From: an uncultured Lutibacter sp.
GTDB lineage: Bacteria; Bacteroidota; Bacteroidia; Flavobacteriales; Flavobacteriaceae
Length of the DNA: 64,000 nucleotides
Assembly (NCBI RefSeq): GCF_937891065.1
Contig: NZ_CALAEQ010000268.1
Coordinates: forward strand, 19,730 to 83,729
Direction: 5' to 3'
Part shown: positions 11,182 to 12,787 of the stretch, one piece after another
Position numbering within the stretch: position 1 is the first letter of the stretch
How the letters are laid out: the number at the start of each line of letters is the position of its first letter
Translations under genes and position numbers: made by a program
The notes under the pieces: model-generated
The model's database searches: none
Seen by the model: the letters and a program-made list of their open reading frames with translations, nothing else
What the model was told of the DNA's origin: nothing

Positions 11182-12012
11182 TCATTCATTTAGCAAACGT
11201 TCTATTTCAATTCTAAGATTGTTAATTTTAACGTTTTCAGCAATTTCTAAACGACCATTATATCTAACTCTACCATTTTTTAGAATGGTTAAATGCGGGT
11301 ATAAATTAAAACTTAAACTTTGTGAGATTTCATTGGAACTAGCATATAAGGTCGGAAATTTATAACCTAATTCTTTGACTAATTCTTTTGTTTTTATTAA
11401 GGTATCTCTTTTTATAGGTACATTAACACTGAAAATAGCAACATTTGGATTGTTTTCGTATTCTAAATATACCTTTTCATAATCAGGAAATTTTTTAAAA
11501 CAAACCCCACAACTTGTTGTCCAAAAATCCAATACAATAACTTTATTTTTAATTGTATCAAGTTTAATTAATTTATCACTATTACTTAATAACTCAATTT
11601 TAGGAGATTTATCATTTACTCTCACATTATAATTCCTTATAAATGAATTCAAATTATCAAATCCATAATAAAATATAAATACAATAAAAAGTATAAAAAG
11701 TAAAGAAAATGTTTTTGATTTTTTTTGTGTTAAATAACCGAATAAAATACTTGTTGGAATAATTATCAGATAAAATAAAATAATACTAGTTAATGCATTT
11801 TTTAAAAATAATGTTGAAGTCATTAATAGTAAAAAAGGAATGCTAAAAATAAAAACTTGCTTTTTAGTTCTAGAATAAAAACCAATTATAAAATAAAAAA
11901 TTGACATTAAAAGCAATAACCACTTATGATTGCCATTTAGGGCAATTAGCCCAATTATTAAGTAAAAAATAATTGGGCTAACAGCAGTAAAAATGATTTT
12001 TAAAATTTTCAT
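11182..12012 (-). CDS. multi-TM membrane protein with C-terminal TlpA/thioredoxin-like domain
   Basis: N-terminal hydrophobic helices; C-terminal VIVLDFWTTSCGVCFKKFPDYEKVY (CxxC) thioredoxin fold. Confidence 0.85.
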   Translation of the reverse strand: MKILKIIFTAVSPIIFYLIIGLIALNGNHKWLLLLMSIFYFIIGFYSRTKKQVFIFSIPFLLLMTSTLFLKNALTSIILFYLIIIPTSILFGYLTQKKSKTFSLLFILFIVFIFYYGFDNLNSFIRNYNVRVNDKSPKIELLSNSDKLIKLDTIKNKVIVLDFWTTSCGVCFKKFPDYEKVYLEYENNPNVAIFSVNVPIKRDTLIKTKELVKELGYKFPTLYASSNEISQSLSFNLYPHLTILKNGRVRYNGRLEIAENVKINNLRIEIERLLNE

Positions 12013-12013
12013 A

Positions 12014-12723
12014 TTAACCAGTACAATCTCCAGTGCAACTCTGCATACCTAACCATCCACAACCAAAAGTTGTATCTTCACAACTATTATCACTGCAATC
12101 TCCTAATTGAGCAAGTTGACAAGTAATATCCCATCTGCAATCACAATTATCTGTACCACCACCTCCAAGACCATCATCCGGGTCCGTTTCTACGTCTATA
12201 ACTCTTGAGGAAAATTGAAATTCACTTTTGTCTTTAACCGCATCAACATTTAACATACCAAAACCACTTACTAAAAAGTAAGGAGTCCATTTAAAATTTA
12301 ATTTTCCTTCTTCAAACCAAGAATTTAAAAATAATAATTGCTCTTCGGATAATTCTTTTGAAAAATCATATTTATTGAGAAGTTTTTCAAAAGTCTTTAA
12401 ATGATTAATTTCTTCTTCTGAAAAATTTAAGGATTTAATTTGTTTAAATTTGTCAACCCAAAGTTGTTTTCTTTTTTTAGGTGAAAAAGTTCTAAAAGCA
12501 GCTTTTTGTTTTTCGACTGTTAAAACAACTAATTCATTTCTATTCATAGTTTTTAAAGATTCAAGGTTTTCTTTAGCCCAAGAATCAATTTCTTTGTCAC
12601 AACTGTAACAAGTGTCATCTTGACAACCTATATTTGCAAAAGAAATTAAAAATAAAAAGATTAAAAGTTTGAAGTTTGGTGTTCGGTGTTCGGTGTTCGG
12701 TGTTCGGTGTTCGGTGTTTTCAT
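12014..12723 (-). CDS. fulvocin C-related Cys-rich lipoprotein/bacteriocin-like protein (start region phase-variable; internal-Met ORF is 12014-12547)
   Basis: C-terminal NCDCRWDITCQLAQLGDCSDNSCEDTTFGCGWLGMQSCTGDCTG with 8 Cys; upstream of the listed ORF the frame stays open and encodes a lipoprotein signal FKLLIFLFLISFANIGC, but there is no in-frame ATG; the ATG at 12723 is out of frame by one heptamer repeat. Confidence 0.72.
12678..12719. repeat. heptanucleotide tandem repeat GGTGTTC (GAACACC on the coding strand), 5 perfect copies plus one imperfect
   Basis: Direct reading: GGTGTTC x5 (12678-12712) then GGTGTTT (12713-12719). Confidence 0.97.
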
Positions 12724-12787
12724 AGTATAGCTTTTTTAAATTATTAAACTTAAAGATAATACTTTCTATTTTATAAAAAAAACTAAA

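Follow-up and report, generated by a model that had tools for sequence, protein, structure and literature searches.

A heptamer array between start codon and lipobox signal peptide as a probable translational ON/OFF switch of a fulvocin C-related lipoprotein gene in Flavobacteriaceae

The minus strand of the window, by which we mean the whole 64-kb stretch of DNA analysed, carries a lipoprotein gene and, with its start 1 nt past the lipoprotein stop, a gene for a membrane thioredoxin (Table 1). The pair is flanked by queA and rlmN. Read along the minus strand, the lipoprotein gene begins ATG-A-AAACACC-(GAACACC)x5-AAACTTC-AAACTTT-TAATC..., followed by an intact lipobox signal peptide, and an A-rich stretch precedes the ATG. 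Tandem Repeats Finder (TRF) reported 6.4 copies spanning 12674-12718, with a 97% match.

Table 1. Coordinates of features at the lipoprotein-thioredoxin locus of the window.
Feature	Position	Strand	Evidence
Partner gene: multi-pass membrane protein with TlpA/AhpC-TSA thioredoxin domain (CGVC)	11182..12012	-	PF00578, 4.2e-11
Mature lipoprotein, 203 aa: helical domain and C-terminal segment with 8 conserved cysteines; NF033852	12014..12625	-	Profile match, alignment
Hydrophobic lipoprotein signal peptide (NFKLLIFLFLISFANIGC), lipobox Cys codon TGT at 12625-12623, then Q-D-D	12623..12676	-	Translation
TAA closing the ATG frame in the 5-copy state	12661..12663	-	Frame translation
Degenerate flanking unit AAACTTT	12664..12670	-	
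Degenerate flanking unit AAACTTC	12671..12677	-	
(GAACACC)x5, stop-free heptamer array, exact copies	12678..12712	-	Sequence and TRF
Degenerate flanking unit AAACACC	12713..12719	-	
Putative start codon ATG of the lipoprotein gene	12721..12723	-	Sole canonical start able to serve the signal peptide
Weak promoter-like stretch upstream of the ATG	12740..12768	-	Consensus match only; not evidence of function

The earlier note on this DNA had claimed that five GAACACC copies follow the ATG at 12723 and that the frame opened there soon stops, and translation agreed: with five copies the ATG frame encodes MKTPNTEHRTPNTEHQTSNF*, 20 codons in all. The lipoprotein frame, which reads ...TPNFKLLIFLFLISFANIGCQDDTCYSC..., is continuous into a 177-aa ORF. 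As the note had also stated, this frame contains no ATG, GTG or TTG in the 63 codons between its upstream stop and the lipobox cysteine. Its first canonical start is the Met at 12547, inside the mature protein; the start in the ORF track is this internal Met, and it drops the signal peptide, again as described. A table of frames against copy number confirmed that 3 or 6 copies, and likewise 9, join the ATG to the lipobox signal peptide and the 177-aa ORF, while the five copies of the assembly leave it out of frame. A repeat unit that is not a multiple of 3 therefore lies between the start codon and the remaining ORF, and its copy number decides between a full-length and a truncated product, with no alternative canonical start. 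This is the anatomy of a simple sequence repeat (SSR) contingency locus.

The window holds only one array with a unit of 4-9 nt and at least four exact copies, and 50 Markov-1 simulations of the window produced none. Two such arrays were found in ~584 kb of sampled sequence, none in the window genome and both in one congener; this background density is an estimate from sampled stretches of those two genomes. The GAACACC array is unique in the whole window genome. It is not due to chance, and such arrays are rare. In G010, a genome of the same genus as the window, an AAAG array of 10.75 copies (L136:4313-4355) ends a few bases before an ATG whose frame soon meets a stop; this too may be a gene under repeat control.

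The product matched the NCBIfam family NF033852, 'bacteriocin fulvocin C-related protein', with 99.1 bits (E 4.1e-28, profile positions 1-149 of 150), well over the curated cut-off of 35 bits. The label 'bacteriocin-like' given to the gene by the earlier note thus stands as a family match; bacteriocin function is here an inherited label, and a putative role in killing neighbours comes from the family name alone. No Pfam family scored above cut-off for the lipoprotein, and PADLOC gave no match. By inspection, a hydrophobic signal leads to a lipobox cysteine and then to acidic residues (LLIFLFLISFANIGC-QDD), as in lipoproteins processed by signal peptidase II. The negatively charged residues after the cysteine fit the surface lipoprotein export signal of Bacteroidetes (PMC5080379), so that the lipoprotein is probably surface-exposed. 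Like other members of NF033852, it combines a lipoprotein signal with eight C-terminal cysteines, and these eight and the lipobox cysteine are common to the 19 members aligned. AlphaFold was confident only for the helical N-terminal domain (pLDDT ~85-96 for residues 11-120, <50 for residues 138-187). A fold search returned no match (best E 6.1). A profile search of solved structures gave two weak matches to MACROD2 (E 0.002-0.003), which we dismissed as spurious, as there was no support for a macrodomain.

Homologues of the partner thioredoxin adjoin 13 other NF033852 genes, which indicates that lipoprotein and thioredoxin form a conserved cassette. Eight cysteines together with a dedicated thioredoxin suggest that the lipoprotein contains disulfide bonds. 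The lipoprotein gene was absent from 37 congeners. In congeners, queA and rlmN are close neighbours without the pair, so that the cassette was either inserted in the window species or lost in the others. In the closest relative, the orthologue L066, the cassette also lies near rlmN, and two tandem thioredoxin partner genes follow the lipoprotein gene (L066:4675-6506). Gene neighbourhoods called by eye place a related lipoprotein with DUF1573-like, redoxin and clostripain-like genes in a Bacteroidales metagenome-assembled genome (MAG; L068) and with DUF1573-like and MauE-like genes in Hoylesella timonensis (L069). These hint at a wider cassette for disulfide formation and processing.

The two closest Flavobacteriaceae relatives of the lipoprotein, L066 and L067, form one clade with it in a tree (support 96/93). 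In L067, from an uncultured Flavobacteriaceae MAG, the ATG is followed by (AACA)17 and then by the signal peptide. The array is out of frame, with the ATG frame ending after 25 codons; no ATG, GTG or TTG precedes the lipobox in the lipoprotein frame, and no other array of this kind occurs in that genome. L066 is in frame and lacks a long repeat. Its start (ATGAACACACC, MNTPQHATRS..., M-x-T-P) resembles that of the window gene (MKTPNTEHR...), which supports the ATG at 12723. The AC-rich start of L066, with two CAACACG copies, may be a collapsed array, on a stretch too short to claim it. In two of the three genes of the clade, then, this site is occupied by arrays that differ in unit length.

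In 16 more distant aligned members, no SSR was found between the ATG and the signal peptide, at which they start directly. Most NF033852 members found begin in this way, unlike the window gene, and a switch common to all members was rejected, with only the window gene and L067 having it. A distant homologue, L012, carries a run of GTT triplets within ~100 bp upstream of its NF033852 lipoprotein ATG, where a change in promoter spacing could follow. The earlier note had proposed a comparison of related genomes; made with one genome per species, all fragmented drafts, it gave absence of the array from the 37 congeners searched and nearest orthologues that differ in the unit and the presence of the repeat. 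In a scan of genome contigs, the window protein by itself recovered no relatives and a three-sequence alignment recovered four. When the DNA surrounding the array was searched for in 30 relatives, most matches were to rlmN or to AT-rich stretches.

Pure GAACACC arrays are rare. Among the matches listed for a sample of 301 genomes of the family were the window genome, G263 and G270; in a sample of 388 genomes of the order, only the window genome matched. The array in G263 sits upstream of a start codon. In G270, which represents a third genus, locus L155/L084 consists of an ATG, (GAACACC)7 and then a signal peptide with lipobox. The gene is unrelated to that of the window lipoprotein, and its product is a cysteine-containing lipoprotein with no Pfam or NCBIfam match. 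This array too is out of frame in the assembly, with no canonical start before the lipobox. The single genome searched in that genus held just this copy.

These observations are most simply read as a translational ON/OFF contingency locus resembling neuO, caught in the OFF state, a reading to which we give a probability of about 0.8; switching itself is inferred from the sequence. Slippage of the GAACACC array between start codon and signal peptide would change the reading frame. With 3, 6 or 9 copies, a full lipoprotein would be made with a variable, repeat-encoded N-terminal leader, to be removed along with the signal peptide; other copy numbers would give a short abortive peptide, and the five copies assembled would represent OFF. 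The product would be a fulvocin C-related lipoprotein, rich in disulfides, probably exposed at the surface and with a possible role in bacterial competition, and the adjacent thioredoxin may serve its oxidative folding or maintenance. The switch looks real because a related gene in another bacterium has a different repeat at the same place, and the phase-variation reading of the earlier note gains support from this repeat in L067, from the in-frame start of L066 and from the heptamer of L155. In living populations the rate of slippage may be low, since five copies make a short array.

Of the competing accounts, that of a recent pseudogene fares best, although we consider it unlikely. A single change in repeat length would have left the lipoprotein gene permanently off. 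This account predicts that all three repeat-bearing copies (window, L067 and L155) are out of frame, as they are, although under random phase the chance of that is ~0.3; the absence of the gene from the 37 congeners also speaks for it. Yet the remaining 203 codons are intact, and so are the eight cysteines, the partner gene and the long ORF, which favours the switch. Furthermore, a multi-copy array that is out of frame is by nature reversible, and related genes would not be expected to end up, through random decay, with two different arrays at one position.

The array could also have another origin, because GAACNYY heptamers in the family lie mostly outside coding sequence, often just upstream of starts. 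Of 301 Flavobacteriaceae genomes, 43 had such arrays, and control matches were few; G286 had 99 matches and G056 had 25. By hand tally of 29 sampled loci (L070-L098), 11 arrays preceded a start on the same strand by no more than 30 bp, and two were in the opposite orientation. Most units end in T (e.g. GAACACT) and so carry TGA, and cannot be coding. GAACNYY arrays may therefore be a class of 5'-untranslated element comparable to the TAACTGA heptamers described by MacGregor (2015), direct repeats upstream of start codons that also occur in some Bacteroidetes (PMC4679880). Were the window array such an element, its copy number would tune translation from a non-canonical start codon, without any frame switch; ATC at codon -12 and ATT at -7 from the lipobox are candidates. 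We regard this as improbable, somewhat more so than a pseudogene. Initiation at either codon would cut the hydrophobic core of the signal peptide, L067 offers only ATT (-15) and ATA (-5), and L155 has no ATG, GTG, TTG, CTG, ATT, ATC or ATA at all between array and lipobox. In addition, the start of L066 is an ATG in a similar sequence. The TAACTGA repeats are mostly untranslated and precede the start, whereas the window array is stop-free and lies downstream of the ATG; its unit likewise differs from the T-ending, TGA-carrying units of most 5'-untranslated arrays.

The least probable account, to which we attach very little weight, is an assembly or sequencing error that hides a true count of 6 and a gene stably on: the genome is a draft of 276 contigs and repeats are error-prone, but the whole array of ~56 bp fits within an ordinary read, exact 7-nt deletions are an unusual base-calling error, and the slippage-prone architecture would remain even with 6 copies.

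The closest parallel to the preferred reading, a frame switch by slippage, is neuO of Escherichia coli K1 (phage CUS-3), which has a heptanucleotide array (AAGACTC), again a unit that is not a multiple of 3, in the 5' part of its coding sequence and encodes a full-length product when the copy number is divisible by 3 (PMC13001214). The two differ in that neuO is a prophage O-acetyltransferase gene with 3-53 copies and measured switching, whereas the window gene encodes a Flavobacteriaceae lipoprotein, has five copies and is known from sequence alone; moreover, its array precedes a signal peptide, unlike that of neuO. The (AACA)17 array of L067, directly after the ATG, has the layout of the tetranucleotide translational switches of Haemophilus influenzae (a class treated in PMC2651432). 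Those loci are surface genes of a host-adapted pathogen, unlike the fulvocin-related lipoprotein genes of L067 and the window. In the literature searched, there was no report of repeat-driven phase variation at a fulvocin-related lipoprotein or through a GAACACC heptamer in Flavobacteriaceae. Repeat-driven phase variation has been documented mostly in host-adapted Proteobacteria, and the novelty here is one of gene and lineage, not of mechanism.

That related genes have different repeats at a single site suggests selection for random ON/OFF expression. Other genes of this kind may be hidden, because annotation pipelines call them truncated or drop the signal peptide. More tentatively, and as a possibility that we would put at somewhat below even, Flavobacteriaceae may use stop-free repeats (GAACACC, AACA) as interchangeable frame switches before lipobox signal peptides. 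The different repeats acquired at this site in related copies of a single disulfide-rich lipoprotein-thioredoxin cassette would then suggest that bet-hedging has been selected for repeatedly, in a protein displayed on the surface for antagonism or recognition, and in bacteria other than the classic host-adapted pathogens.
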